Origin: Conus ventricosus
Taxonomy: Eukaryota > Mollusca > Gastropoda > Neogastropoda > Conidae
Direction: 5' to 3'
DNA length: 64,000 nt
Assembly: GCA_018398815.1 (NCBI GenBank)
Contig: CM031626.1
Span: 43,024,450-43,088,449 of the forward strand
This document shows, one piece after another, positions 1,893-60,900 of the stretch. Under the pieces are notes generated by a model. It saw only the letters and a list, made by a program, of their open reading frames with translations, had not been told where the DNA came from and did no database searches. Numbering within the stretch: the first letter of the stretch is position 1; the number at the start of each line of letters is the position of its first letter. Both the position numbers and the translations under genes were made by a program.

Positions 1893-4800
1893 GCATGTGC
1901 ATGAGCACATGTCCATGCATGTGTGCGTGCGTGTGTGCATGCAAAATGAGCACACTCATGCTTGTGTAGTTGTGTATATGTGTGACTATGTGAGAGATGT
2001 GTTCATGAATTTCTGTCTATGTGCATGTCATGAAGGAGAGGTTTAGTACGCTCTGTCTCTTTAGACTGTGATGCTGACTTCCATTCTATGGAAACATGCT
2101 TACCACACTGAAGTATGTATGACAGAAATTGTGTGCAGAGTAGCACAGCAAGAAACCTGAAGGCCAGTTGTGTCACTGAAAGGCATCTCTTCACCAGTCT
2201 ACGTAAACTCTCATCACCTCTGTCACTTGCATACATAACACCTGAACAAAACAAGCTACAAAAAACCTACACCTACACACACAGAGGCCAGTACGCGCAC
2301 ATGCACGCACACACACACACGATAAGATAAGATAAGATAATGTTGCTTATAGCCCAGCCGACCGCAAAGGGCCATATCAGGGCTGTCACCACGTTAAAAT
2401 CAACTCACCAGTCATTTAAAAAAAAAAAAAAAAAAAAAAAAACCTTTCACACATCTTGTTAAATGACATCGTCTACAAACGCACCAGAAACTTTGTTAAA
2501 AATCTTTCTGCCGTAAAATCTTAAATCAGATGAAAAATGTTAATCTCTCTCAAAAACTCGAGGATCACATCAGGCGGAACATCCCTGAACAGGATCTTCA
2601 TGGACTCCGCCGTAAAATGTTTGTGTCTCACATCGTGCAAGTCCCAACACTCTAAAAGAACATGTTTCATTGTGAGTGGCGCATGACATGGAATGCACCA
2701 CGGAGCTTCTTCACTCTTTAAAGGTAGGAATGGGTTAAAATACGAATGGCCGGTGTGCAGCCGGCACAGAACTGTTTCCTCTTTACGATCTCCCGACGTA
2801 GATGGAGGAAGTCCTTAAGGTTTGGACGGATCTGAAAGAGTTTGTTAATTGTCTGTGTGTTCCAATCCTCCTGCCAGAGGTCTCTCACATAATCGTTAAT
2901 TTTGGGTTTCACGTCTGAGCAGGGGATATAAATGTTGGACAGTTTCTCTCTTGTGGCGTTCTTGGCTAAACGATCAACCATTTCGTTCCCGCCGATGCCA
3001 ACATGACCAGGAACCCAAGCAAGAGTAATGTTGTAACCGTCCGCTTTCAACTTGCTAAAAAGTTCGAAGAAATGTAAAAGTTCTGGATGCTGAAGGTTGC
3101 GGCCAGCTATGGCCTCCAAAGCTGACAGCGAATCTGACAGAACCAGAAAGTCCCTCTTTGAAGAATGTGAGATTATCTTCAAAGCCAGTACCAGAGCAGT
3201 AAGTTCAGCAGAAAAACAGAAGCATCGGAATGAATATGTTCCAATAGTATCTGAGAAGGAGCCCCAGGGCAATAGGCTGCACAGGCCACTCCATCTTCAG
3301 ACTTGGAACCGTCAGTGAAAACTTTTTGACAGGATGGAAATTTCGAACAGAGCTCAGCATACAATGCCTTGTATGCCAGAGAGCTGGTAGACTCTTTGCG
3401 AAAAGCTGCAAGATCAAAACGAATCTCTGGTGTGAAAAAGGTCCACGGTGGTTGATCCGGAAACTTGGAAAAATCAGATACTACACCTAGGTCTAGACCT
3501 GCATTCGCACGTGAGGCTGCATACGAAGACCAAACGGCGGAACACAGTTAGGGTCCGTTTTGAAATTTGTTTTGAAACTGAGGGTCAAAGACACAGTCAT
3601 AGGCAGGATTCTGCGGTTCTGAGAACAGTCTGATATAAAATTTAGAGACATTTTCAGCCTGCGGTTGGACAGTGAGGGTTCACCTGCCTCTGCGTACAGG
3701 CTGTACACAGGGGTGGTGCGGAATGCTCCAAGACAGAGACGAAGCCCTTGATGGTGGATAGGGTCCAAGAGTTTGAGGTAAGAGGGTCTTGCAGAGCCGT
3801 ACACAGCACAACCATAGTCCAGTCTGGAACGGACCAAGCTCTGTAGAGGTGCAGCAAAGTTTTCTTATCACGCCCCAGTCGGTGTGCGCTACGACCCGCA
3901 GAATATTCAGAGCTTTCTGGCAAGAAGTTTTAAGGTTTTTGATGTGGCTGAGAAAGTTGAGTTTTTGGTCAAAAATAACTCCCAGGAATTTGGCTTCTTT
4001 TACAACTGGAATGGGGGACTTGTCCAGACGAATTTAAGGATCAGCAAAGAATCGACGAAAATTGTGAAAATGAATTGACTGAGTTTTAGTACGGGAGAAG
4101 GTAAACCCGTTTTCCTCGGCCCACTGTTGGATTCTGTTGACACAAAGTTGGAGTCGACGCTGTACACTGGCGTAGAAGCTCCAACTGCATACAGCGCAAA
4201 GTCATCAACAAACAGAGAGGACTCGGTGCCCAGGCTTACCGATTTGACAATGTCATTTAAATTTTAAATGCTGAAAAGGGCGGGAGAAAGGATGCTCCCC
4301 TGAGGAACACCCAACTCCTGCCCATGGATGTCAGAGAGTGTGGTGCCAACACGCACCTGAAACTGTCGATCAGCTAAAAAATTCTGAATGAACAGAGGCA
4401 GGTGACCCCGAAAACCAAGTCTGTGCAGGTCCATGAGGACTCCTGCTTTCCAAGTGGTGTCGTACGCCTTTTCCAGGTCGAAAAAGATAGCGCCACATGC
4501 GTTTGTTAACAAAGGCATTGCGGATGGTGGTTTCCAGACGGATTAGATGGTCAACCGTCGAGGGGTACTTCCGGAAACCGCACTGTTCACTGGCCAAAAA
4601 GACCATCGGTTTCCAGCTTCCACATCAGACGGGAGTTGACCATCTTTTCCATCAGCTTACAGAGGCAGCTGGTCAGAGCGATTGGGCGATAGTTGGAAGG
4701 GTTGGTAAGGTCCTTTCCAGGCTTTGGAATGGGAATGACCAGGGCTTTCCGCCAGGAAGGCGGAAAGGACCCTGTGGTCCAGATATGGTTATAGACTTGG

Positions 4801-7800
4801 AGAAGAGTCTGGAGACAGCTTTCTGGAAAATGTTTCACAACCTGATAATGAATGTCATCCAGACCAGGGGCAGAATCAGTGCAGGTTTGTAAAGCTAATT
4901 TGAGTTCAGCGATTGAAAAAGGAAGATTATAGGTTTCAGAGTTGTCCGATGTGAAATTGTATGATGATTTCTCTCTAATCTCTTTGTTTCTTAAAAAGAC
5001 TGCAGATTTATTTGAAGATGAGGAGTTCTGTTGGATGTGGAGGCCAACAGATTGGCAACAGCTTGTTTGTCAGTGATCAGAGCATCAGAAAGTTTCAAGT
5101 GATGAATAGAGGGGTTGGTGTTCTTCCCTTTAATTTTTCTAATGATGTTCCAAACTTTTTTCTTGGAAGTTTTAGATATCAGCCTGGAGCAGAAGTTTCT
5201 CCCCGGACCGACGTTTACTGATTTTGAAAGTGTGTCTCGATTTCGCACGGAGTTTCTGATGGGCTCGAGCGTTGGGACCCGAAGGTCGTTGGTATACCCG
5301 ACGCTGAGCCCGTTTGTGAACTTTTGAAATTTGTTGGCAGTCTGAATTGAACCAGGGTGTTTTGGCATTTGGAGTTTGTCGGAAGACACTGGAATACAGG
5401 TTTTAGCACAGTTTATCACAGTGTTAGTCAGAGATTCGACTGGGTCTGGACTCTGAAAAAATCAGTGTCCTGGAATTCTTTTGAAATAGTGGTTGAAAAT
5501 AGATCCCAGTTTGCTTTCTTATAATTGAGATGTTGAGAGACAGAGGCGGTTTCAGTTAATATGGGCTGTAAAGAACAGGAAATGGTCACTTCCGTGCAGA
5601 TCGTCATGGACAGACCACTCATAGTCCAGGACCAGCGAGGGGTCACAAACCGACAAATCTAAACACGAAAGTGAACCTGTGGAAGAGTGGAGGTAAGTTG
5701 GAGCTCCATCGTTCAGACAACACAAATCAAAGTCAGAAAGGACATCCTCAAGAAGCAGACCTCTGGGTGACGAACTGACACTACCCCAAAGAGGATTTTG
5801 ACCGTTAAAGTCACCCAACAGCAAAAAAGGTCGAGGAAGTTCTCCAATCAGACTGACAAGGTCCTGACGACAAACCGGAACAGAAGGAGGTAGATAAAGA
5901 GAACAGATTGTGACAGTCTTGTGGAGAGTGACTCTCGCAGCTACAGCCTGAAGGGAGGTAGACAGAGCGACAGGACTATATAACAGAGTTTTGTGTAGGA
6001 GAAGGGCAACACCGCCCGACAGTCCCAACGTGGATGGTTGTGCAGGTTTCGAAAGAATATTAAAGCCAGAAAGAGTAAAGGTCTTCTGGCTTTGACTTGA
6101 GTTTCTTGAAGAGCCACGACGGAAGGTTTTAGAGACTGACACAGAAGCTGCAGCTCCTCGAAGTTGGAATTTAGACCACGGATATTCCAATGGAATATTG
6201 TATTATCCATGGTGCAGAGGGCGAAAAGGGGAGAGATCAGGTCATCTCCTCATCAACGTCTGCCTCCAATGGAGCGAATTTGTTATTCAGCTTCACTGGA
6301 GTGTGTTGGTCTACAGACCTGCTGGCAGACTTGCCAACAGGCGAAGAAGGTCTGGATTTGGGAGATGGGGGAGGTTTCTTCCTCATCTCCACCATCTCCA
6401 CACTGGGTTGAACTCCCTTGCCCGCACGGGCACTGGACTGAGGAGTTCGAGGTTGGGAGCTGGCTTTTAATCTGCCCAGCAGCAGATGTTGTAGACTGCT
6501 GGGCAGTCTGAGGGGTGGGCGGATTTTTTGCCTCCACCAGGGGCATTCACTGTGGTTTGGGAGGTGGTGGACCTGCTTCCACCAGAGCCGACAGTTCTTC
6601 CTTGCAGTGTTTTTGAAAAGATAAATTCATCAGTCTGGCAGCAGACTGACCGAGTGATACTTTCTTTACGGCCGAAGCATACGAAGATGCTGTGGGCATC
6701 TGACTGCCCACAACCTGTTTACGGGCCTCAAAAAGGAGATTTTCTTTTCAGTTTTAATTCGTGGATAGTAGATTCCTGAATCCAAAGAGGGCAGTTTTGT
6801 GAAGAGGAGGGATGGTCGCCACCGCAGTTAGCACAATGTGCCGGATCTTTGCACGGCCCATCATGGGTTGCCTTGCAGCAAACACCGCACACCTCCTGCC
6901 CAGAACAGCGGTCTCTGACATGTCCAAACCTCTGGCACCGGAAGCATCTCAAAGGGGACGGACATACAGCTGAACACGGACGTTCAGGTAGCCAACTTTG
7001 ATGACCGAGGCAGCACAGGGTTGCAGAAGGTCAGAAAGAGGGTGTTGGGGGCCACTCTCTCTGCACCTTTCTTGACTGTCACCCTGCGCACCTCCGTCAC
7101 ACCCTGGGACGCAAGTTCCGTTTTTATTTCTGCCTCTGAGACACCCGCTAGATCTCTGCAGCGAATCACACCTTTGGATGAATTTAACTGTTTATGGGAG
7201 TCACCCTGATCTCCCTATCCACTAATTTTGTTGCCCTCAACAGCTGTTCGGATTGTTTTCTTGATCGACATTGAACCAGAAACGAACCATTCCTCAACCT
7301 TTGACGGACTGAGGGTCACCTGCTAAGCCTTGAAAGCCCTTTTGGATAGCAAAAGGGCTCAGAGCGGAAAGGGGTCTTTCCTGCTCTGTCCCTTCTACCA
7401 CGAGCCCGGAAGCCCAGAAACCTGTTCTCTGTCGTACCTCCGTGTCAGAATCGCTATCAGAATAACGGTCCCCTGAAATAGGGGATGCTGCTTTCCTCTT
7501 CCTTTTGGGGAGATGTTTTTTGATAAAGCCAGTTTAGTTTAGTATGTTTCAATCTTCCCTTACCCACCCACCTTGGAGTCCAACTAAGGGGCCAGGGGCC
7601 CAAGAAACCAATGTCTTGACCCCTTCCAGGCTTCGGGAAAAGATATACGACAAACAGAAACTACCAACCCTATCCCCCCTGATCATGCTCAACTCCCGGG
7701 GACAGAGAGCTGAGCACTGCAGGGGTTAACTTGGCCAGTAGGGGAACTGTCTGTCTTGACCCAGCCCAAGAAGGGGAGCCGATTAGTACACCCGGGCCAA

Positions 7801-10881: not shown

Positions 10882-13862
10882 ATTTCAACTTTATGTTGAA
10901 GTAATTGTATTTATGTAAGCTGAAAACATGGTATCTATCCCCCTGACTTATGTGGAAGTGGTTTTACTGACCCCCTGACTTTTACTAAAAAGACTGCATC
11001 TGTTCTTGCCGACCCTCTGACTTATACTAAAAAGACTGCATCTGTTTCTGCCGGCATACACTGAAGTGGCTGCATCTGTCCCCAACATATGTTGAAGTGT
11101 TTGTACCTTCTCTGACCTATGCTGGAGCGACTACATTCAGCCCTGACTTATGTTGACATGATTGCATCTGCCCCACAGACCTACGCTCAAGTAACTGTAT
11201 CAATACCCTGACTAATGTTCAAGTGATTCTGTCTGCCCCACAGACCTACGCTCAAGTAACTGTATCAATACCCTGACTAATGTTCAAGTGATTCTGTCTG
11301 TCTCCCAGACTTACACTGAAGTGGTTGTTTATCTTTCTTCTGACCTATGTTGGGGTCATCTTTCTTCTGACCTATGTTGGGGTCATCTTTCTTCTGACCT
11401 ATGTTGGGGTCATCTTTCTTCTGACCTATGTTGGGGTCATCTTTCTTCTGACCTATGTTGGGGTCATCTTTCTTCTGACCTATGTTAGGGTCATCTTTCT
11501 TCTGACCTATGTTGGGGTCATCTTTCTTCTGACCTATGTTGGGGTCATCTTTCTTCTGACCTATGTTGGGGTCATCTTTCTTCTGACCTATGTTGGGGTC
11601 ATCTTACCAGTCACTGTGATTTATGTATTGAAGTGCTTTCTTTCTGTCGACTGTATCTGTCCCTTTGATTCATGTTGAAAAGACGGTTTCTACCCAACCT
11701 GACTTCTTGAAGTGATTCTGCTATCCCCTGCTTCAAATTATCCTTCCCAAACACACACACGCATGCATGCACGCACGCTCGCACTCACTCACTCAATCAC
11801 ACACACACACAGAGACTGACTTGAAGACGACGTCCTGCACGTCAGTCAAGACCACGCCCACACTCTGCAGGAAGACGCTGATCACTCCTGCCTGGATTTC
11901 CACCGGCTTGCCGTCACTGCTGCCTGCCCCGGTCTGCAGGGAGAAACTCAGGTGAACCTGGAACACACAGTGACATTCCCATCGTTTTAACCATCAGCTG
12001 AACCTGGAACACACAGTGACATTCCCATCGTTTTACCATGAACCTGGAACACACAGTGACATTCCCATCGTTTTACCATGAACCTGGAACACACAGTGAC
12101 ATTCCCATCGTTTTACCATGAACCTGGAACACACAGTGACATTCCCATCGTTTTACCATGAACCTGGAACACACAGTGACATTCCCATCGTTTTACCATG
12201 AACCTGGAACACACAGTGACATTCCAGTCGTTTTAACCATGAACCTGGAACACACAGTGACATTCCCATCATTTTACCATGAACCTGGAACACACAGTGA
12301 CATTCCCATCGTTTTACCATGAACCTGGAACACACAGTGACATTCCCATCATTTTACCATGAACCTGGAACACACAGTGACATTCCCATCACTTTACCAT
12401 GAACCTGGAACACACAGTGACATTCCCATCGTTTTACCATGAACCTGGAACACACAGTGACATTCCCATCATTTTACCATGAACCTGGAACACACAGTGA
12501 CATTCCCATCGTTTTACCATCAGCTGAACCTGGAACACACAGTGACATTCCCATCGTTTTACCATCAGCTGAACCTGGAACACACAGTGACATTCCCATC
12601 ACTTTACCATGAACCTGGAACACACAGTGACATTCCCATCGTTTTACCATCAGCTGAACCTGGAACACACAGTGACATTCCCATCGTTTTACCATGAACC
12701 TGGAACACACAGTGACATTCCCATCGTTTTACCATCAGCTGAACCTGGAACACACAGTGACATTCCCATCGTTTTACCATCAGCTGAACCTGGAACACAC
12801 AGTGACATTCCAGTCGTTTTACCATCAGCTGAACCTGAAACACACAGTGACATTCCAGTCGTTTTACCATCAGCTGAACCTGAAACACACAGTGACATTC
12901 CCAGCATTTTACCATGAACCTGAAACACACAGTGACATTCCCAGCACTTTACCATGAACCTGAAACACACCCTGACCGCCTATCGGTCGCAGGAGGGGAA
13001 GGGATGGAAGGGCCGCGGTTTGTTTAAACAGCGCACTTCTGCCGACAGCTGCCAGCTTCCTCGCGCTAACCTCCCACAAGCTTTCCTCCCTACGCGTAAT
13101 GTGATACTAACTGTCTGGCTGATAGTGTGCTGAAAACAGGATGCTGTGTTTCTTCATTAATACTTTGTGCCAGAATGCAACGGACTGTGGTTGATTTATG
13201 TCACTGTATTGTGGGGTCTCTAACTGACAGAACAATACCAAACATGAATGCGTCTTCTTTCATATGCATTGCTGACAAGCACCACAAAGATTTGCCAACA
13301 AAAAACGATTGAAGCAGACTAACGAACACACAGAAATTTTAACTCAGTGGAGAGCATGCGTTCCTGAATCTATCATGCTCAACCTGATACATATTGGACA
13401 TGCATATCTTTCCTTTACAACAGACAGAAAGTTATTCGCGGGACTCCTACCTGACAGCTGGTACTAGGCCAAAATAAACAGTCACTGTCGGCACTGGTCA
13501 GCTTCACGGGGAACACGGCAGCGGTTTCCCTACCACGGCCTAGGCATGTTTTGCTTGTTTATATGCGTGCTCTACATGCTTGTGACGCATGCCGAAACTG
13601 ATTCTATCACAGCCACACCATGCTCTTAGTAAAGTAAGATTTTAGCATGCCACACATGCAGATGTCACAGCCACACCATGCTCTTAGTAAAGCAAGATTT
13701 TAGCATGCCACACATGCAGATGTCGGTCATAAACAATGAAATGCTTCCTAACTGACCTTGTGCTTTCGCCCGTTCGAATCATTTGAAACTGATGTCACAT
13801 ATACACACACCAATGCAAAATGTTTTCTCATTTTCATCTTCATGGTGAGCCTACTCATGACT

Positions 13863-13971: not shown

Positions 13972-14871
13972 TGACAGAAACCCACACACCAACAACAGCG
14001 GTCGATGGTGACTGACAAACTGACGTCCACACACTTTCATTAGTATCCAAGCATACATCAGACATGTCAACACATTCAAGTGCCGAGTTGGATGTGCTAG
14101 CTATGACTGGTAAGGTTTGTGTAGAGAATGTTCTTGGCTTTTTCACAGGGGTCGACACCGATGGAGAAAATGATGACACACTTTCATCTGTGTGCAAGCA
14201 AAGATCAGACTGATCTAAACATTCTTGAGCAGATCTTTTGAAGGGTCAGCTCTTCTTTGTTTTCCGACGACCAAGAAGGCCGGCTGATTGAAAGAATCGA
14301 CATGATGTACACTGACTCAAAGAAAGATCTGGATCGAAAGTTGTCCAGATTTCTGACATTCTCTCTATGTCACGAGCAGCATTTTTTTTTGTAGTATAAC
14401 ATTGAGAATGTGCTGACATGTGTCTCGTTTTTTTTCAGTTTATGGTAGCATTTTATGCAAATATACTTGAACTGTTTGCCTTCTTCATCACCATAAATAT
14501 CTAGAGTGCAATACTGCAACAAATCATTGGAGAAGTTGACACAAAGTCTAGCGTTTAATCCTTTATCTTGTACCTTTCTGAGCACACGACTGCCGCACAC
14601 ACGGCACAACAACTCTACACGTCTTTTGCGTTCACTGAAGTTGTGTTTAAAACGCCTCCGCCACTGTTGGCGCTACAAACACGCACACATACGCACATAC
14701 AAAAGATCGGAATGAAGTAGGCCTACACGAAAGCAACAAGACTAGCCAATGCAGGGTTGGTCACACACACACGCGCGCACGCACATACACAAACATACAC
14801 ACACACACAGAGACACACTGACAGACACACATACACGTGTACACACACACACACACACACACACACAGAGC

Positions 14872-15039: not shown

Positions 15040-15071
<32 letters not shown>

Positions 15072-18000
15072 CACTCCCACTCCACCCTCCACCTACACCC
15101 TCTGGTTTTCCTTTACCTTGATGGGGGAGAAGTGGAGGTAGTCAAAGTTCTGTTCTTCAGCCATGAAAACCTGCCCCCCACCCCCACCCCCCTCCCCTCA
15201 CCTCCCATTCCACCCTACGCCCTCTGGTTTTGCTTTACCTTGATGGGGGAAACGTGGAGGTAGTCACAGAAGTTCTTCTGTTCTTCATCCATGAAACCCT
15301 GCCCCCCCCCCCCCCCCCTCCCATTCCACCCTACATCCTCTGGTTTTGCTTTACCTTGATGGGGGAGAAGTGGAGGTAGTCGTAGAAGTTCTTCTGTTCC
15401 TCAGCCAGGGACAGCCCTGCCACCTCCATCAATGACTTCTCCGTCAACTCCACGTCCTGCTTCAGCTGTATCGTCTGTGGCGACATGACAACAGTCAAAC
15501 CAGTCATCAACACATACAGTCATCAACACAAACAGTCAAACCTGTCATCAACACAAACAGTCAAACCTGTCATCAACAACTTCTCCTTCACCTCCTCGTC
15601 TTACTTCCGCTATACCATCTGTCAGAACATAACAGACTCAAACCTGTCATGAACGACTTCTATGCAGAACTATGCTTACCCTCTCTGGACCTAAACGCAA
15701 TACATCAAGCTGTAAAGAGTAATCTGAAGGTGAAAAGTGTATCTCAGAGACTGCTCTCCGAAACGTCCACACATGCAGAGTAACTCAACAGATTCACGAT
15801 CAGATTCTTTGAGCAACTTCCTTCACATCGCAGCAGGGACTGAAACGACAGCACGCCCACCAAAATTGATAATCCTCCTTTCCATTCAGCAACATCACTG
15901 CCAGACAGACTTTCAGAAGCATAACGCTACTGCAAGCACATTCAAACCACAGAGGGCGCTTGTCATTTCCAGTACGCCCGCTGTGCTCTCAACCAATTGT
16001 GAGACCATAAATGGGGCTCTTTCACATGTGGAATTCTGACGATCTCTCTTTCACATGTGGAATTCTGGCAATCTCTCTTTCACGTGTGTAATTCTGGCAA
16101 TCTCTTACATGGAATGTAGTGTAAGGAAGTGTGTTAGTCAAATACAGCCCTCAAAGATGTAAACTATTATGCCAACAAAAATGCAATCAATCCTGACCAA
16201 AGTGGAAGCTAAGCAGGTGCGCCTCTTCCACCTCCACATCATGTTACAGCTGTACTGTAACACCGTATACTCTATCCTCAACACTTTCCATCCACCTCCA
16301 CATCATGTTACAGCTGTACTGTAACACCGTATACTCTATCCTCAACAGTTCCCATCCACCTCCACATCATGTCACAGCTGTACTGTAACACCGTATACTC
16401 TGTCCTCAACAATTTCCACCTCCACATCATGTCACAGCTGTACTGTAACACTGTATACTCTATCCTCAACAATTTCCACCTCCACATCATGTCACAGCTG
16501 TACTGTAACACTGTATACTCTGTCCTCAACAATTTCCATCCACCTCCACATCATGTCACAGCTGTACTGTAACACTGTATACTCTATCCTCAACAATTTC
16601 CACCTCCACATCATGTTACAGCTGTACTGTAACACTACATACTCTATCCTCAACAGTTTCTTCACCATCTCTACATTCTAAACAGAGTCAACACAGTAAA
16701 ACACAAAAATGCTAACTCACCTCCTGTTCCCGTGGCAATGGCTCATTGGCCGCAAAAAGTTCCAGAATGGCATTGAGGAATCCCTGGTCCACCTTCAGGT
16801 TCATTTCCTGGATCAGCACCTTGAAATACCTGTAATAATATTATCAGACCTCTGTCAGCACCTTGAAATACCTGTAATAATATTATCAGACCTCTGTCAG
16901 CACCTTGAAATACCTGTAATAATATTATCAGACCTCTATCAACACCTTGAAATACCTGTAATAATATTATCAGACCTCTATCAACACCACGAAAATCCTG
17001 TAATAAGAGAATCACACCTCAATCAAAGGCTTCATGTATTTTGTCATAATCACACCTGAACTAATACCTTCAAGTACCTGTAATGATAAAACAAAATCTC
17101 AATTAACACCTTGAAATAAATGTCATAAAAAGAATTGTAACTCAGACAGTATCTTAAAATCAAAATGATATTTTTCTTTACTCAGACTGTATCTTAAACT
17201 CAAAATGATATTTTTCTTTACTCAGACTGTATCTTAAAATCAAAATTATATTTCACTTTACCCAGACTGTATCTTAAAATCAAAATGATATTTCACTTTA
17301 CCCATCTTTCTACCAGTACGGTTTCCTTCACCCATCAAAGCGGATTTTCTACAGGCAACTCACTTGCTGCCATGGGATCTTTTACATGTGCTAAACTCCT
17401 GACGTACACAAGACTCTGGTTTATCATCTCCTCCGAAAAATAACATTCTGACCAACACAGAAGATCTGTTGAAGAGGGGAGAGAAACCTGGCCCAGACTG
17501 ACTGGATACATTCTGCCTTCTCAGGCAAAGTACCTGACCCACCAGGACAGGTGTGGCAGGCCTCTGAGACACGAAAGTCAAGGCGCACTCACTTGATCTG
17601 ACTGACGGTGCTGTGTTCGTGTTTCCTCATCATCACGCTGAGCTCCGTGAAAGGTTTGGGTACTGCAACAAGGTGAAAGGTAGTCTGCTTTGAGAATCAC
17701 AAATCCACATAAGTTTCTCACAAAAAGGTAAGGATAAAGCCGGCTCTGACGACTGCATATTCTGTCTATTTTCTCACATGGGGAGGGATAAACTCAGCTC
17801 TGTCGGTTGCATCTCCTATTTTCTCACCAGGGGAGGGATACAGTCAGGACTGTGGGTTGCATCTCATATGTTTTCACAAGGGGGAAGGACAAATTCAGCT
17901 CTGTGGGTTGCATCACCTATTTTCTCACATGGGGAGGGATAAACTCAGCTCTGTGGGTTGCATCTCCTATTTTCTCACAAGGGGGAAGGACAAACTCAGC

Positions 18001-20868: not shown

Positions 20869-23363
20869 GTGGAACTCACCACTGTCAGCAGCCACAGACT
20901 TGGGGGGTGGAAGGGGAGAGAGAACAGTAGGGAAGACTGCATGACTCAGCTGATTGTCCAACTGCAGACAAAACACATCACACCGGTCTATTCCTTTAAC
21001 ACACACACTGTCCAACTGCAGACAAAACACATCACACCGGTCTATTCCTTTAACACACACACTGTCCAACTGCAGACAAAACACATCACACCGGTCTATT
21101 CCTTTAACACACACACTGTCCAACTGCAGACAAAACACATCACACCGGTCTATTCCTTTAACACACACACTGTCCAACTGCAGACAAAAACACATCACAC
21201 CGGTCTATTCCTTTAACACACACACTGTCCAACTGCAGACAAAACACATCACACCGGTCTATTCCTTTAACACACACAGTGTCCAACTGCAGACAAAACA
21301 CATCACACCGGTCTATTCCTTTAACACACACAGTGTCCAACTGCAGACAAAACACATCACACCGGTCTATTCCTTTAACACACACAGTGTCCAACTGCAG
21401 ACAAAAACACATCACACCGGTCTATTCCTTTAACACACACAGTGTCCAACTGCAGACAAAACACATCACACCGGTCTATTCCTTTAACACACACACTGTC
21501 CAATGCAGACAAAACACATCACACGGTCTATTCCTTTAACACACACAGTGTCCAACTGCAGACAAAACACATCACACCGGTCTATTCCTTTAACACACAC
21601 ACTGTCCAACTGCAGACAAAACACATCACACCGGTCTATTCCTTTAACACACACAGTGTCCAACTGCAGACAAAACACATCACACCGGTCTATTCCTTTA
21701 ACACACACAGTGTCCAACTGCAGACAAAACACATCACACCGGTCTATTCCTTTAACACACACACTGTCCAACTGCAGACAAAACACATCACACCGGTCTA
21801 TTCCTTTAACACACACACTGTCCAACTGCAGACAAAAACACATCACACCGGTCTATTCCTTTAACACACACAGTGTCCAACTGCAGACAAAACACATCAC
21901 ACCGGTCTATTCCTTTAACACACACAGTGTCCAACTGCAGACAAAACACATCACCCCGGTCTATTCCTTTAACACACACAGTGTCCAACTGCAGACAAAA
22001 CACATCACACCGGTCTATTCCTTTAACACACACAGTGTCCAACTGCAGACAAAACACATCACACCGGTCTATTCCTTTAACACACCACTGTCCAACTGCA
22101 GACAAAACACATCACACCGGTCTATTCCTTTAACACACACACACACACACAAAAGTCTTCTCTCTTGTTTGACAATTTCTTGTAGCTGAGGAAGAAAATA
22201 AATGAAAAGATCCGCAATTGCTCCCCGCCCTCTTCGAGGAAGAAAATAAATGAAAAGATCCGCAACTGCTCCCCGCCCTCTTCCGATCCAGGCCTCACAC
22301 AATAAACAACAATCCATTGTTCAATGCTTTGTTAAAAACAAATCAAGTTCTTTCTCAGAAATAAATGAAAAGAAAGCAAGAAAGACTAGCAAAGAAAAGA
22401 AAAGTCTGAGAGAAAAGAAAAGTCTGAGAGAAAAGAAAAGAACAGCTATCCGTTCAGTGTCTTCAAGGAGACATCACTGCCTGCAGAGCAGTCCATGTAC
22501 ATCCACACCATGTCTGCCGAGTCCTCAGGTCAGCATGTGCAGGCATTACGCCCAAACACATAAACCAGTGAGCAATGAAACAGGACAGAGATACGAACAC
22601 CGGATCATGGATGAGAGTTGGCAGATATCTGACCTACTTGTTGATCTATGGTGCTGATCAAGTCATCTGAACCTGGATGTGTGAGAGAGAGAAAGAGAGA
22701 GAGAAAGACAGAGCATGTGTGTGTGAGTGTGTGTGTGCGTGTGAGTGTGAGAGAGACAGACTGAGAGATTGTATGTGTGTGTGTGTGTGTGTGTGTTGTG
22801 TGCGCGCGACTGTCTGTCAGACAGAGAGCGAGAGACAAACCAAGAGAGACTTAGAGAGAGAGCGAGTTATGACTTGCCAACTGATCTACCTATAAGGAGT
22901 TGCTGGGAGGGCCGTCATCTATGACTAGGAGGCTGACCCTACCTGGATGCGGTTGATCTTGGCATGGAGTTGCAGCTGGTGGGGGGACGTCTTGTACTGC
23001 ACCCAGATTCCGTTCTCAAAGCTGCGACGAATGGAGAAGGTCTTGGGCTTGATGACCGTCATGTCGGCAAAGTCCACCTGCACCATCACCAGGCCAATCA
23101 TTAACTGCAGAGTCTCCTACACTTGCACAAAATTTGACTTTCCAGAGCTCCAAAGGAGCAAAAGTTCAAACCCTTCAAATCCTAAGGAGGTGTACTGGGA
23201 GGGGGGATGGATGGGCTAACGGGTATAGGGACGTGACGTCCACCACCACCACCACCCTCCCCCATTCTCCTCCCTTGCGAAGAAGTTTACACGAGGTCTC
23301 ATGACGACAGTGTCGTCTGCTACCGTATTAATTAAAACCACGACAAGCACTCTGGGGATCACG

Positions 23364-36500: not shown

Positions 36501-39500
36501 ATAGTTACAATGTGTCTGTCATTTGACCCAATAGCTGACGGTGATGACAGGATCATCATAATGTGTCCTACAGAAGATCTTGTTGCTGACCATGATGCCA
36601 AGACTATCAGGATACATAATCAGTCTGCCAAATTTCCTGAAGTTCGGCATCATGCCACGCCAACCTAAATCACCTGCAGATTCTCAGGGTTTGTGAAAGG
36701 AAGAAACAACATGATACTGACGGGAGAAAACAAGACTGTTGCATCCACAAAAGGCACTAACTTTTCCCAAAAATGATCAAACGCAACGCATTAAAAACAT
36801 TATCAAAAACAAAAGAACAGAAAACAAATCAAAATGGAAAACAGTCAAGAGAACGAAAATAAAGATATGCACAACATAATTCTGAGAAACAAGTTGAACA
36901 GGAAAAAAACCTGTAAAGTATGTACACTTTAAAAACAAAATAAGTACTTGGGGGAAAAAAAACAACTTATGAACAAAAAGTAAACAAACAAATCAATCAC
37001 AGCTTACCAAAGATGCATCAATTGCCTGTCATGTCAATTTTACACACACACACACAAACACACACAAATCTTGAAGAATAATCATGAACACTTGTAAAAG
37101 TACAAACTAAGGAATTAATTCAGAACGCAATCATGAACCAACTCACATACACGCACACCACGCCCAAACACTTATCAACCAACTCACATACACGCAAACC
37201 ACGCCCAAACACTCATCTGCGCACCACATCAAGTACCGACCAATGGAGGACATGTACAAAAGGGGCGTATACGTAGAGACAAAACAATTTATTCAGGATG
37301 CAAGCACGCACTCATATACAAGCCACCAAAGTCCAAATGTTCAGTTGCACAGCACTGAGTGAATCCACAAGCATGCAGGTCAGACTCCTACACACAGAGA
37401 CATACATGCATTCCCTTAAAGGCCCCTCCCTGCCTACACACATACACAAAGGAAAGGCGTCGTAGCAAAGAAAACATTCACCTAAGAAGTGACACATTCC
37501 TGGATCCAAGGTTCCAGACTCACACTGATTTCCTTCCCCCCTTTTCCCCAGATCTGAAGTGGTGGACTGAGACAGCAAGCACAGTGTGCGTTCTGCCAGA
37601 CTTTGTGTGTCTGGTCTACTTGGACAGTCCTCTGAAGCCAGGCTTTGTGTGTCTGGTCTACTTGGACAGTCCTCTGAAGCCAGGCTTTGTGTGTCTGGTC
37701 TACTTGGACAGTCCTCTGAAGCCAGGCTTTGTGTGTCTGGTCTACTTGGACAGTCCTCTGAAGCCAGGCTTTGTGTGTCTGGTCTACTTGGACAGTCCTC
37801 TGAAGCCAGGCTTTGTGTGTCTGGTCTACTTGGACAGTCCTCTGAAGCCAGGCTTTGTGTGTCTGGTCTACTTGGACAGTCCTCTGAAGCCAGGCTTTGT
37901 GTGTCTGGTCTACTTGGACAGTCCTCTGAAGCCAGGCTTTGTGTGTCTGGTCTACTTGGACAGTCCTCTGAAGCCAGGCTTTGTGTGTCTGGTCTACTTG
38001 GACAGTCCTCTGAAGCCAGGCTTTGTGTGTCTGGTCTACTTGGACAGTCCTCTGAAGCCAGGCTTTGTGTGTCTGGTCTACTTGGACAGTCCTCTGAAGC
38101 CAGGCTTTGTGTGTCTGGTCTACTTGGACAGTCCTCTGAAGCCTCACATGAGCCCTCCTAAGATTTCAGAGTTGCATTAGTAGATACATCTTGGTGTCAG
38201 CATGGAATTCAACCCAAATCATCAACAACGTCAGCAGAGGCTACTTCAGCTGGGGCTACAACATCAGGTGGGGCTACAACGTCAGCTGGGGCTACAACAT
38301 CAGGTGGGGCTACGTCAGCTGGGGCTACAACGTCAGCTGGGGCTACAACATCAGGTGGGGCTACAACATCAGGTGGGGCTACAACGTCAGCTGGGGCTAC
38401 AACATCAGGTGGGGCTACGTCAGCTGGGGCTACAACGTCAGGTGGGGCTACAATGTCAGGTGGGGCAACGTCAGCTGGGGCTACAACATCAGGTGGGGCT
38501 ACAACATCAGGTGGGGCTACAACGTCAGGTGGGGCTACAACATCAGGTGGGGCTACAATGTCAGGTGGGGCAACGTCAGCTGGGGCTACAACATCAGGTG
38601 GGGCTACAACATCAGGTGGGGCTACAATGTCAGCTGGGGCTACAACATCAGGTGGGGCTACGTCAGCTGGGGCTACAACGTCAGGTGGGGCTACAAGGTC
38701 AGCTGGGGCTACAACGTCAGGTGGGGCTACAATGTCAGCTGGGGCTACAACATCAGGTGGGGCTACAACGTCAGGTGGGGCTACAAGGTCAGCTGGGGCT
38801 ACAACATCAGCTGGGGCTACAACGTCAGGTGGGGCTACAACGTCAGCTGGGGCTACAACGTCAGGTGGGGGCTACAACGTCAGGTGGGGGCTACGTAAGT
38901 TGGGGCTACAATGTCCGGTGGGGGCTATGTCAGCTGGGGCTACAACGTCAGGTGGGGCTACAACGTCAGGTGGGGCTACAATGTCAGGTGGGGCTACAAC
39001 GTCAGCTGGGACTACAACGTCAGGTGGGGCTACAACATCAGGTGGGGCTACAACGTCAGGTGGGGCTACAACGTCAGGTGGAGCTACAACGTCAGGTGGG
39101 GCTACAACATCAGGTGGGGCTACAACGTCAGGTGGGGCTACGTCAGCCGGGACTACGTCAGGTGGGGCTACAACGTCAGGTGGGGCTACAACGTCAGGTG
39201 GGGCTACAACGTCAGGTGGAGCTACAACGTCAGGTGGGGCTACAACATCAGGTGGGGCTACAACGTCAGGTGGGGCTACGTCAGCCGGGACTACGTCAGG
39301 TGGGGCTACAACGTCAGGTAGGGCTACAACATCAGGTGGGGCTACAACGTCAGCTACGGCTACAACGTCAGGTGGAGCTACAACGTCAGGTGGGGCTACA
39401 ACGTCAGGTGGGGCTACAATGTCAGGTGGGGCTACAATGTCAGCTGGGGCTACAGCGTCAGGTGGGGCTACAATGTCAGGTGGGGCTATGTCAGCTGGGG

Positions 39501-42500
39501 CTACAACATCAGGTGGGGCTACAACATCAGGTAGGGCTACAACGTCAGGTGGGGCTACAACGTCAGGTGGGGCTACAATGTCAGGTGGGGCTACAATGTC
39601 AGGTGGGCTAATATGTCAGGTGGGGCTACAACGTCAGGTGGGGCTACAAGGTCAGGTGGGGCTACAATGTCAGGTGGGGCTACAATGTCAGGTGGGGCTA
39701 CAAGGTCAGGTGGGGCTACAATGTCAGGTGGGGCTACAAGGTCAGGTGGGGCTACAACATCAGCTGGGGCTACAACATCAGCTGGGGCTACAATGTCAGG
39801 TGGGGCTACAACGTCAGGTGGGGCTACAATGTCAGGTGGGGCTACATTGTCAGGTGGGGCTACAGCGTCAGGTGGGGCTACGTCAGCTGGGGCTACAACA
39901 TCAGGTGGGGCTACAATGTCAGGTGGGGCTACAACGTCAGGTGGGGCTACAACGTCAGGTGGGGCTACAATGTCAGCTGGGGCTACAACATCAGCTGGGG
40001 CTACAACGTCAGGTGGGGGCTACGTAAGCTGGGGCTACAATGTCCGGTGGGGGCTATGTCAGCTGGGGCTACAACATCAGGTGGGGCTACGTCAGCTGGG
40101 GCTACAACGTCAGGTGGGGCTACAACGTCAGCTGGGGCTACAACGTCAGCTGGGCTACAAAATCAGCTGGGGCTACAACGTCAGGTGGGGCTACAACATC
40201 AGCTGGGGCTACAACATCAGCTGGGGCTACAACGTCAGGTGGGGCTACAACGTCAGGTGGGGCTACAACGTCAGGTGGGGCTACAGCGTCAGGTGGGGCT
40301 ACAACATCAGGTGGGGCTACAACGTCAGCTGGGGCTCCAATGTCAGCTGGGGCTACAACGTCAGCTGGGGCTACAACGTCAGGTGGGGCTACAACATCAG
40401 GTGGGGCTCCAATGTCAGCTGGGGCTACAACATCAGCTGGGGCTACAACGTCAGGTGGGGCTACAACATCAGCTGGGGCTCCAATGTCAGGTGGGGCTAC
40501 AACGTCAGGTGGGGCTACGTCAGCTGGGGCTACAATGTCAGGTGGGGCTACAGCATCAGGTGGGGCTACGTCAGCAGGGGCTACAACATCAGCTGGGGCT
40601 ACAACAAATCGCCCACTTTGTTATACCGCACCTATCTGAAACGCAAAACAAGTCTGGAAGCAGAATCTGAACTTTCAAAATTAATGATACTCAAATGCAA
40701 TGCTGACACAGAGGAACCAAACTTGTTCGTATTTTGATCCACATCAATTGTGAACTTAAATGCACCCCGCAGACTTCTGAACGGAATTTTAAGCATGTCC
40801 TTTCAATGTCTAGCCAAGTCAAGAATATGCTTGTGCACATGCACAGCGGCCCAACTAAACCCACATAAAGGAACTGACAGAAAAAGCGCCATCTGTGGTG
40901 AGATTTCAAAGAAAAGCCCACCAGGTGAAGTCAACCAAAACCTTTCCAGACAGGAAAAACATGTGCGTTGCCACACTGTTGTTCCAGGTGAAGTCAACCA
41001 CAACCTCTCCAGACAGGAAAAACGTGCGTTGCCACACTATTGTTCCAGGTGAAGTCAACCACAACCTCTCCAGACAGGAAAAACATGCGTTGCCACACTA
41101 TTGTTCCAGGTGAAGTCAACCACAACCTCTCCAGACAGGAAAAACGTGCGTTGCTGCACTGTGAAGGTGAAGTCAACCACAACCTCTCCAGACAGGAAAA
41201 ACCTGTGCGTTGCCACACTATTGTTCCAGGTGAAGTCAACCAAAATCTCTCCAGACAGGAAAAACGTGTGCGTTGCTGCACTGTGAAGGTGAAGTCAACC
41301 ACAACCTCCCCAGACAGGAAAAACGTGTGCGTTGCTGCCCTGCTGTTCCAAGCTCTCCACAGGGACTGCAGCCCAAAGGTTTGATCCAGAGAAATCTGCT
41401 GTGACCATAGAGTTATGCAGTCAACTATAATTCCCATGGCAGGTCAAGCAATTTTTCAAAACCTTTACAGCAAATCTGGTAAAGGCGAGGTAAGGTAAGG
41501 TCAAGTTGCTTATAGCCCAGCCGACCGCAAAGGGCCATATCAGGGCTGCCACCACGTTAAAATCAACTCACAAGTCATGGTGAAGGCGATGGGTCAAAGA
41601 AAACTGGCGGCCTGTCGTAACGATCCGTAAAAATCACCTGCCCCTACGCAATGGTCCATGTTCCAACCAGTCAAAGAATGATCAACTTTACACGCATTAT
41701 CGGTGGTTGGTGCTTACTGGTGTTGCATGAACCAGCCAAAAAAAAAAGAGTTGATACCAGTAAACACAGATCCTGAATACATTGCCATGCAATGCAAAAC
41801 ATCACAATACACAACACACAGAGAAAGCATGAACAATGAATAGTCAAATTATAAGACCTGAATCATTATATTGTCTGATAAGTACATAAGCAGCATTGGT
41901 TATTCTTTTCTTTTTTTTTCTGAGAAGATCATCCTTCACCAGAAAAAGATAAGAACCACAAAACAAACATCAGAAAACAATAGAAAAATTGGACAGACAA
42001 AAAAAGAAAAAGGCAAACTAGACTTCTTAACCCCCACCCCCGCCCTACCCCATCCCTGACATATCAGCGATTGCTTGATCAACACAAAGATAAACGTCCT
42101 TTAAAAAAAAAAAATTTTAAACAGAAAAAAAAAAGGGAGTGTTTGGGGGGGGGGGGGGGGGGGTCATGGCTTCAAGGGAGACAACTGCACCTCCTGAGCA
42201 CTGGCGGCGATGGCCAGATCTTCAGTGAAGAGGAGCATTCGCTGCAGGCCATCCAGGAAGGAGACCCAGTACACCTTGGTCTCATCGTCAGCAAAGAACT
42301 CATCCATCCCATCCTGAGAGACAGACATATTGCTCAAGGTGATTAGTTGTCTTGTTTTTGTATCACACACACACACATATACTCCACACTCTCTCCCACT
42401 CATGCACACACACACACGCACACACACACACACGCGCGCGCCACACATTCACACACGCATGCACACACAGAGTAACATGTGCACATGCACCACACATACA

Positions 42501-57900: not shown

Positions 57901-60900
57901 AACCAAGATAGATGTCAATCAAGCTAACACACTTGGGAGTTATCAAGATAGTTGAAAATCCCGACTTTTTTTCAATTTGGGGATAAATAGGAGACATCCA
58001 ATAGTCTGGAATGATGATCAGGGTGGACAGAATCAAGACAGGAGACATCCAAGAGTCTGGAATGATGATCAGGGTGGACAGAATCAAGACAGGAGACATC
58101 CAATAGTCTGGAATGATGATCAGGGTGGACAGAATCAAGACAGGATACATCCAATAGTCTGGAATGATGATCAGGGTGGACAGAATCAAGACAGGATACA
58201 TCCAACAGTCTGGAATGATGATCAGGGTGGACAGAATCAAGACAGGATACATCCAATAGTCTGGAATGATGATCAGGGTGGACAGAATCAACATGTCCAT
58301 ATTTCAAGATGACCGGGATGGACACTTTTTTTTCTCCTTCAAAGCTTGAGATAACAAAGGTGGAAGAAACTGGAGGTGTTCATAATGTCGGATAAACTAC
58401 ACCACCATCACAATCCTTCAACAACTGCATGGCTCTGTACACCACCATCACAACCATTCAACAACTGCATGGCTCTGTACACCATCATCACAACCATTCA
58501 ACAACTGTACACCACCATCACAATCCTTCAACAACTGTACACCACCATCACAATCATTCAACAACTGCATGGCTCGTGTGCTGACTTAATAAGGATGAAT
58601 GGAATTCATATTTGATAAACTACACCACCATCACAATCATTCAACAACTGCATGGCTCGTGTGCTGACTTAATCAGGATGAATGAAATTCATATTTGATA
58701 AACTACACCACCATCACAATCATTCAACAACTGCATGGCTCGTGTGCTGACTTAATAAGGATGAATGGAATTCATATTTGATAAACTACACCACAATCAC
58801 AATCATTCAACAACTGCATGGCTCGTGTGCTGACTTAATAAGGATGAATGGAATTCATATTTGATAAACTACACCACCATCACAATCATTCAACAACTGC
58901 ATGGCTCGTGTGCTGACTTAATAAGGATGAATGGAATTCATATTTGATAAACTACACCACCATCACAATCATTCAACAACTGCATGGCTCGTGTGCTGAC
59001 TTAATAAGGATGAATGGAATTCATATTTGATAAACTACACCACCATCACAATCATTCAACAACTGCATGGCTCGTGTGCTGACTTAATAAGGATGAATGG
59101 AATTCATATTTGATAAACTACACCACCATCACAATCATTCAACAACTGCATGGCTCGTGTGCTGACTTAATAAGGATGAATGGAATTCATATTTGATAAA
59201 CTACACCACCATCACAATCATTCAACAACTGCATGGCTCGTGTGCTGACTTAATAAGGATGAATGGAATTCATATTTGATAAACTACACCACCATCACAA
59301 TCATTCAACAACTGCATGGCTCGTGTGCTGACTTAATCAGGATGAATGGAATTCATATTTGATAAACTACACCACCATCACAATCATTCAACAACTGCAT
59401 GGCTCGTGTGCTGACTTAATAAGGATGAATGGAATTCATATTTGATAAACTACACCACCATCACAATCATTCAACAACTGCATGGCTCGTGTGCTGACTT
59501 AATAAGGATGAATGGAATTCATATTTGATAAACTACACCACCATCACAATCATTCAACAACTGCATGGCTCGTGTGCTGACTTAATAAGGATGAATGGAA
59601 TTCATATTTGATAAACTACACCACCATCACAATCATTCAACAACTGCATGGCTCGTGTGCTGACTTAATAAGGATGAATGGAATTCATATTTGATAAACT
59701 ACACCACCATCACAATCATTCAACAACTGCATGGCTCGTGTGCTGACTTAATAAGGATGAATGGAATTCATATTTGATAAACTACACCACCATCACAATC
59801 ATTCAACAACTGCATGGCTCGTGTGCTGACTTAATAAGGATGAATGGAATTCATATTTGATAAACTACACCACCATCACAATCATTCAACAACTGCATGG
59901 CTCGTGTGCTGACTTAATAAGGATGAATGGAATTCATATTTGATAAACTACACCACCATCACAATCATTCAACAACTGCATGGCTCGTGTGCTGACTTAA
60001 TAAGGATGAATGGAATTCATATTTGATAAACTACACCACAATCACAATCATTCAACAACTGCATGGCTCGTGTGCTGACTTAATAAGGATGAATGGAATT
60101 CATATTTGATAAACTACACCACCATCACAATCATTCAACAACTGCATGGCTCGTGTGCTGACTTAATAAGGATGAATGGAATTCATATTTGATAAACTAC
60201 ACCACCATCACAATCATTCAACAACTGCATGGCTCGTGTGCTGACTTAATAAGGATGAATGGAATTCATATTTGATAAACTACACCACCATCACAATCAT
60301 TCAACAACTGCATGGCTCGTGTACTGACTTAATAAGGATGAATGGAATTCATATTTGATAAACTACACCACCATCACATCACAATCATTCAACAACTGCA
60401 TGGCTCGTGTGCTGACTTAATCAAGATGAATGGAATTCATATTTGATAAACTACACCACCATCACAATCATTCAACAACTGCATGGCTCGTGTGCTGACT
60501 TAATAAGGATGAATGGAATTCATATTTGATAAACCACACCACCATCACAATCATTCAACAACTACATGGCTCGTGTGCTGACTTAATCAGGATGAACGGA
60601 ATTCATATTTGATAAACTACACCACCATCACAATCATTTAACAACTGCATGGCTCGTGTGCTGACTTAATAAGGATGAATGGAATTCATATTTGATAAAC
60701 TACACCACCATCACAATCATTCAACAACTGCATGGCTCGTGTGCTGACTTAATAAGGATGAATGGAATTCATATTTGATAAACTACACCACCATCACAAT
60801 CATTCAACAACTGCATGGCTCGTGTGCTGACTTAATAAGGATGAATGGACTTCATATTTGATAAACTACACCACCATCACAATCATTCAACAACTGCATG

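Follow-up and report, generated by a model that had tools for sequence, protein, structure and literature searches.

VPS13 exons in the window

The window, that is, the whole stretch of 64,000 nucleotides of Conus ventricosus DNA that was analysed, carries exons of a VPS13 gene on the minus strand. Using a stretch of human VPS13C in tblastn, we have placed eleven exons (a-k) between approximately 42.3 and 8.4 kb, the boundaries being set by hand and exon a beginning at an arbitrary point; the phases are consistent and result in an open reading of 418 amino acids. An earlier, approximate stitch of 408 amino acids made without exon f matched human VPS13C and VPS13A with E values of 1.7e-84 and 2.2e-72, respectively, and the exons that flank the array described below are predicted to encode a continuous VPS13-like protein. 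Exon e (20880..20961, minus strand; 82 nt, phase 0 to 1) is placed by the 11-exon model and by alignment to human VPS13A and VPS13C. It corresponds to what a previous sequence-only reading had named exon 9, a label that followed that reader's own numbering and that denotes the fifth of the 11 placed exons, the assignment to VPS13 being correct. Its upstream partner, exon d (22943..23077, minus strand), ends with the peptide ...AKINRIQ and the donor CAG/GTAGGG (junctions are marked by a slash), and the junction peptide ...NRIQ/LDNQL... aligns without gaps to human VPS13A and VPS13C, neither of which has an insert at this point. Exons g (16721..16829) and i (11821..11957), both on the minus strand and both from the 11-exon model, and exon h (15474-15355, minus strand) are also considered below. 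Compared with Pfam, the two-exon peptide gave a sub-threshold match only, and an Rfam scan of the window at gathering scores yielded no match.

Other features were noted around these exons. Pieces of a non-LTR retrotransposon lie on the minus strand at 2700-6200, past the last VPS13 exon found, with endonuclease, reverse transcriptase and RNase H above the Pfam cut-offs and a second reverse-transcriptase piece below the cut-off. A VPS13 intron holds an open reading frame of 100 amino acids (14373-14672) with a weak, sub-threshold Pfam match to zf-AD. Tandem repeats make up 42% of the window (145 TRF rows), and include an array of 83-bp units extending over 2.7 kb (58538-61275) and one of 18-bp units extending over 2.4 kb (38246-40605).

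A 54-bp array over the acceptor of exon e

The acceptor of exon e lies within a tandem array (array A; 20955..22142, minus strand) to which TRF assigns a period of 54, 22.0 copies and 98% matches. Each unit is composed of 47 intron bases with terminal TGTTTTGTCTGCAG followed by TTGGACA, which are bases 1-7 of exon e, and the array as read from one haplotype totals the authentic copy, with its junction at 20962/20961 on the minus strand (20961 being the exon base), plus 21 upstream copies. The earlier proposal that the acceptor and the first seven exon bases are repeated 21 times upstream in a 54-bp unit is thus borne out by both the motif count and TRF. The motif CTGCAG/TTGGACA is retained in 20 of the 21 upstream copies, the sole exception being copy 10 (first base 21503), which has lost the G of the AG. 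Considering the 23 bases from -20 to +3, the acceptor is identical to the authentic one in 17/21 upstream copies; among the other four, the AG is absent in one and an extra T is found in three (copies 4, 8 and 16, with five T before the acceptor instead of four). With a 30-mer that spans the exon e junction, 18 matches at up to three mismatches are obtained in the window, one of them being the authentic site, whereas 100 shuffles give a mean of 0. Copies 1-4 have their first bases at 21015, 21069, 21123 and 21177; four copies had indeed been predicted here, at values (about 21018, 21072, 21126 and 21180) that are three too high. Beyond copy 4 the intact acceptors span 21232-22095.

The four units on the exon side are mutually identical and exact in length. 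Over the whole set of 21 units only two types of substitution are found, G8C (11/21) and T34G (1/21), each of which alters a residue, together with six indels, all of one base and none of three; three of these six are the identical extra T, which perhaps reflects one event that was later copied, and deletions occur in two units. A higher-order repeat of 217 bp (4 units, 97% matches by TRF) is also found within the array. We have considered this block as a sign of an amplification step that is not a multiple of three and set it aside, as ungapped self-comparison gives 0.68 at 217 versus 0.79 at 54.

A GT run is found at the upstream edge of the array, and the authentic acceptor is preceded by 1.18 kb of array sequence only. 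Using a loose motif, candidate branch-point adenines are found in the unit near -17, -26 and -35. One may also speculate that the units contain microintrons, as a GT..AG stretch of 47 nt runs from ACA/GTGTGT to CTGCAG/. Directly upstream of the array, the minus strand at 22200-22186 reads TATTTTCTTCCTCAG, which by eye and unscored resembles a strong acceptor, and a 48-bp duplication (22150-22290) adjoins this stretch.

Arrays at other VPS13 junctions

Related structures were found at three other exons of the gene, all on the minus strand. Array B, identified by TRF and motif search, has a 42-bp unit that covers the exon g acceptor (TTATTACAG/GTATTTCAAGGTGCTGA...) and a TRF span of 16812..17025, the structure as a whole being noted over 16812-17110. 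The motif search, which missed older degenerate copies upstream, detected five upstream copies, the farthest of which (17077) lies beyond the TRF span; degeneracy grows with distance from exon g, and each of the upstream copies hits a stop at one shared early codon. Array C (11953..12970, TRF and motif search) has a unit of 40/45/46 bp that covers the exon i acceptor (GTGTGTTCCAG/GTTCA), with 24 upstream copies, none of them open in frame and 20 of them carrying the authentic 23-base acceptor. Taking the three acceptor arrays together, the authentic 23-base acceptor is present in 40 of the 50 upstream copies found and the frame is open in 4/50, all of which belong to array A. Array D (15054..15407, TRF) is of the opposite type, as the 3' end of exon h and its donor (ATCAAG/GTAAAG) are repeated downstream, with donors at 15355 (authentic), 15239 and 15117 and long G runs separating the copies; extension of exon h to either of the latter two donors meets a stop. 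Upstream of exon h, local alignment revealed in addition a lone degenerate copy of its acceptor and exon start (15565..15633), whose score of 32 exceeds that of each of 200 shuffles (19 or less) and which falls below the threshold of the junction survey described next.

In this survey, one 40-base probe per junction was compared with random intronic probes drawn from 8.4-42.4 kb. Local copies were found for 5/21 VPS13 junctions unfiltered, and for 4/20 after removal of the donor of exon k, a low-complexity GT run, by a filter also used on the random probes; counting the degenerate exon h acceptor copy, the proportion becomes 5/20. Among the random intronic probes, 124/300 have local copies. 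The probability of observing four or fewer of 20 junctions at the random-probe rate is 0.04, a value that is uncorrected and that relates to probes which are non-independent since the arrays are long. Accordingly, junctions are not preferred targets, and a targeted amplification of splice sites is rejected, local copies being more frequent for random intronic probes than for junctions. Junctions might even be spared, as selection on the exon side would lead one to expect.

Reading frame of the array

In the frame of exon e, the unit of array A reads as 18 residues, with three Cys and no stops. When copies 1-4 are taken as acceptors, stop-free inserts of 54, 108, 162 and 216 nt result, and translation of the joined exons identifies these copies (20962..21177, minus strand) as the only ones that keep the frame open; indeed, exons b, c and d joined through copies 1-4 to exons e, f and g form an open reading. 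Translation thus confirms that the unit equals 18 codons without a stop in the exon frame and that the four nearest copies are exact, as well as that splicing to them would add 18, 36, 54 or 72 residues in a reading that stays open through exons e, f and g. The resulting exon would measure 136-298 nt, which is an ordinary exon size, and copy 5 would result in 353 nt and a stop. All of the 16 other intact copies run into a stop, both those that are out of frame (copies 5-9 and 17-20) and those whose insert is divisible by three (copies 11-16 and 21). A frame shift had been predicted for all copies past an insertion near 21186; this applies to copies 5-9 and 17-20 but does not hold throughout, as copies 11-16 and 21 are back to multiples of three.

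The background against which this open frame is to be read was obtained from 40 arrays of the window, array A included, whose period lies between 20 and 200 and whose copy number is 2.5 or more, overlapping rows being represented by the shortest period. The consensus is divisible by three in 16/40 of them, and of the 240 frames of all 40 arrays, 57 (0.237) are open and belong to an array of this divisible type. Since the six indels of array A are all single-base, its frame has not been kept. Given this together with the 0.237 background, the unreadable sister arrays and the stops met by the exon h donor extensions, we judge that the open frame is not meaningful; it probably arose by chance beside exon e. 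Selection on the reading frame of the array is rejected on account of the one-base indels and the unreadable sister arrays.

Origin of the array and splice choice

Judging from the sequence, array A is very probably a neutral minisatellite of the kind named mirage (see below), with the authentic acceptor mainly used. Indeed, out of the three options that had been offered for this locus, a neutral minisatellite that seeded on the junction provides the best fit to the sister arrays, the 42% repeat content and the one-base indels. Against it count that the length of the unit is exactly divisible by three, that the unit is open in the own frame of exon e, that the four exon-side units are identical and exact in length, that their use would give exons of ordinary size, and that units of the IFI6 minisatellite are reported to be used as donors (PMC4526556).

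The array would have originated in a local tandem duplication that extended from within the intron GT run to just past base seven of the exon, a start within the GT run being suggested by the run at the upstream edge, and such a duplication would have copied the entire 3' splice site. Slippage or unequal exchange would later have raised the array to 22 copies. The copy on the exon side would be the authentic acceptor, maintained by selection, and the remaining ones would drift as intron. As nothing but array lies within 1.18 kb upstream, the authentic acceptor, if used at all, very probably takes its branch point from within the unit, so that every intact copy should hold a complete acceptor module. 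The authentic acceptor would be the favoured one since no other copy directly precedes the complete exon, with a donor 82 bases away, and it would yield most transcripts, the nearest copies being used at most at a low level. Such low-level use is plausible from the exon sizes predicted for copies 1-4 and the stop met by copy 5. As the acceptors are near identical, the choice must come from exon context or position and not from the sequence of the acceptor itself. The same reasoning extends to arrays A, B and C, which amount to a natural experiment on acceptor choice: with the authentic acceptor shared by four fifths of the upstream copies found, the choice cannot be explained by acceptor sequence alone and has to depend on exon context, on the distance to the donor or on position. 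The arrays also represent intermediate forms of interest to models in which repeated splice sites lead to exon extension or intron gain. In respect to VPS13 function, array A adds nothing so far.

An alternative is a decoy or regulatory array, in which the distal copies would compete for the spliceosome and divert part of the transcripts to nonsense-mediated decay, the level of VPS13 being thereby tuned through the length of the array. The decoy option of the sequence-only reading stands in a descriptive sense, as 17/21 upstream copies equal the authentic 23-base acceptor. Both this near identity and the fact that 16/16 intact copies past copy 4 run into a stop agree with a regulatory role, as does human ABCA7, in which a longer VNTR accompanies reduced expression and more frequent skipping of the following exon (PMC5954066). 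However, in ABCA7 the share of unit-retaining transcripts is constant across VNTR lengths (PMC5954066), and in amphioxus no aberrant mRNAs are reported to arise from the mirages of Adh and TnC (PMC3902484). We consider a regulatory role of this kind improbable.

Slightly less probable still is a functional insert of variable length, for which some tissues would splice exon d to copies 1-4 and thereby add 18, 36, 54 or 72 Cys-rich residues. The reading through copies 1-4 into exons e, f and g is open, over the 23 acceptor bases three of these four copies are identical to the authentic site while the fourth differs by an additional T, and exons of 136-298 nt would result. However, an open frame is not rare at this locus (0.237), arrays B and C are unreadable, the frame is not conserved deeper in array A, and an insert would break a stretch that aligns gap-free in human VPS13A and VPS13C. 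The suggestion that a protein region of variable length is emerging here consequently finds no positive support, in view of the open-frame background, the six one-base indels, the unreadable sister arrays and the lack of the insert in both human proteins. It is quite unlikely that individuals with different array lengths make VPS13 proteins carrying from none to four or more Cys-rich inserts of 18 residues each; if true, a coding repeat would have been born straight from a splice acceptor via copies 1-4. A mis-assembly that inflated the copy number can be practically dismissed: long near-identical arrays do assemble poorly and the window translations reveal a block of undetermined bases at about 48.9-49.0 kb, but the units bear distinguishing variants (G8C in 11/21, the extra T in three, deletions in two) and like structures are found at other VPS13 junctions.

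Comparison with known systems

The neutral minisatellite that we favour has counterparts in published systems, which are compared here as described in the available portions of the respective reports. In amphioxus, the globin and Adh3 genes have tandem repeats across exon-intron boundaries that were named mirages, in which AG or GT signals are present in many copies, haplotypes differ in length and either exon boundary can be hit, and for which an intron-gain model was offered; Adh3 data and globin RT-PCR suggest that they leave regular splicing undisturbed, cryptic use being possible (PMC3087553). A TnC mirage was added later, the Adh and TnC mirages being reported to yield no aberrant mRNAs, together with imperfect repeats of mirage kind in PGBD5 (PMC3902484). 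As in the mirages of Adh3, BflGb6, BflGb9 and TnC, the unit at the present locus comprises intron end and exon start (47 + 7 bases in array A), or exon end and donor; splice signals occur in many copies (AG in 20/21 upstream copies of array A) and in several units; and both acceptor and donor types are found, with acceptor arrays at exons e, g and i and a donor array at exon h. The differences lie in the numbers, arrays A and C having 22 and 25 copies including the authentic ones versus 3 and 6 units in the amphioxus BflGb6 haplotypes (PMC3087553), in the occurrence of three acceptor arrays in one VPS13 gene, and in the unit of array A, which happens to be readable.

Among human genes, ABCA7 intron 18 contains a VNTR whose 25-bp unit begins with the donor GT of exon 18, and transcripts retaining one unit amount to 2 ± 1%, a figure assigned by its order in the text (PMC5954066). 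As in array A, the splice site of an exon is part of a minisatellite, and transcripts that retain a unit exist at a low level in ABCA7, as would be plausible for array A; unlike array A, which involves an acceptor and 54 bp, the ABCA7 repeat involves a donor and 25 bp, and use of the unit shifts the frame (PMC5954066). In IFI6 (6-16, G1P3), minisatellite units are reported to act as multiple splice donors, with two downstream units in use (PMC4526556, citing Turri 1995). The likeness to array A lies in repeat units that act, or in array A may act, as alternative splice sites, and the reported use of IFI6 units as donors makes use of repeat copies possible (PMC4526556); the differences are that donors are concerned and that actual use is reported. 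Variable internal tandem repeats at exon-intron boundaries of human segmental-duplication genes, which may create new introns or isoforms, concern recent paralogs, and the portion of that report at hand describes no array of one acceptor (PMC2812944). Among the titles listed by our literature searches, none concerns a VPS13 acceptor array of such kind, from which we do not claim its absence from print. Array A is thus a further example of an already known kind of repeat, unusual in its copy number, in the recurrence of such arrays at several VPS13 junctions and in the open frame beside the exon.
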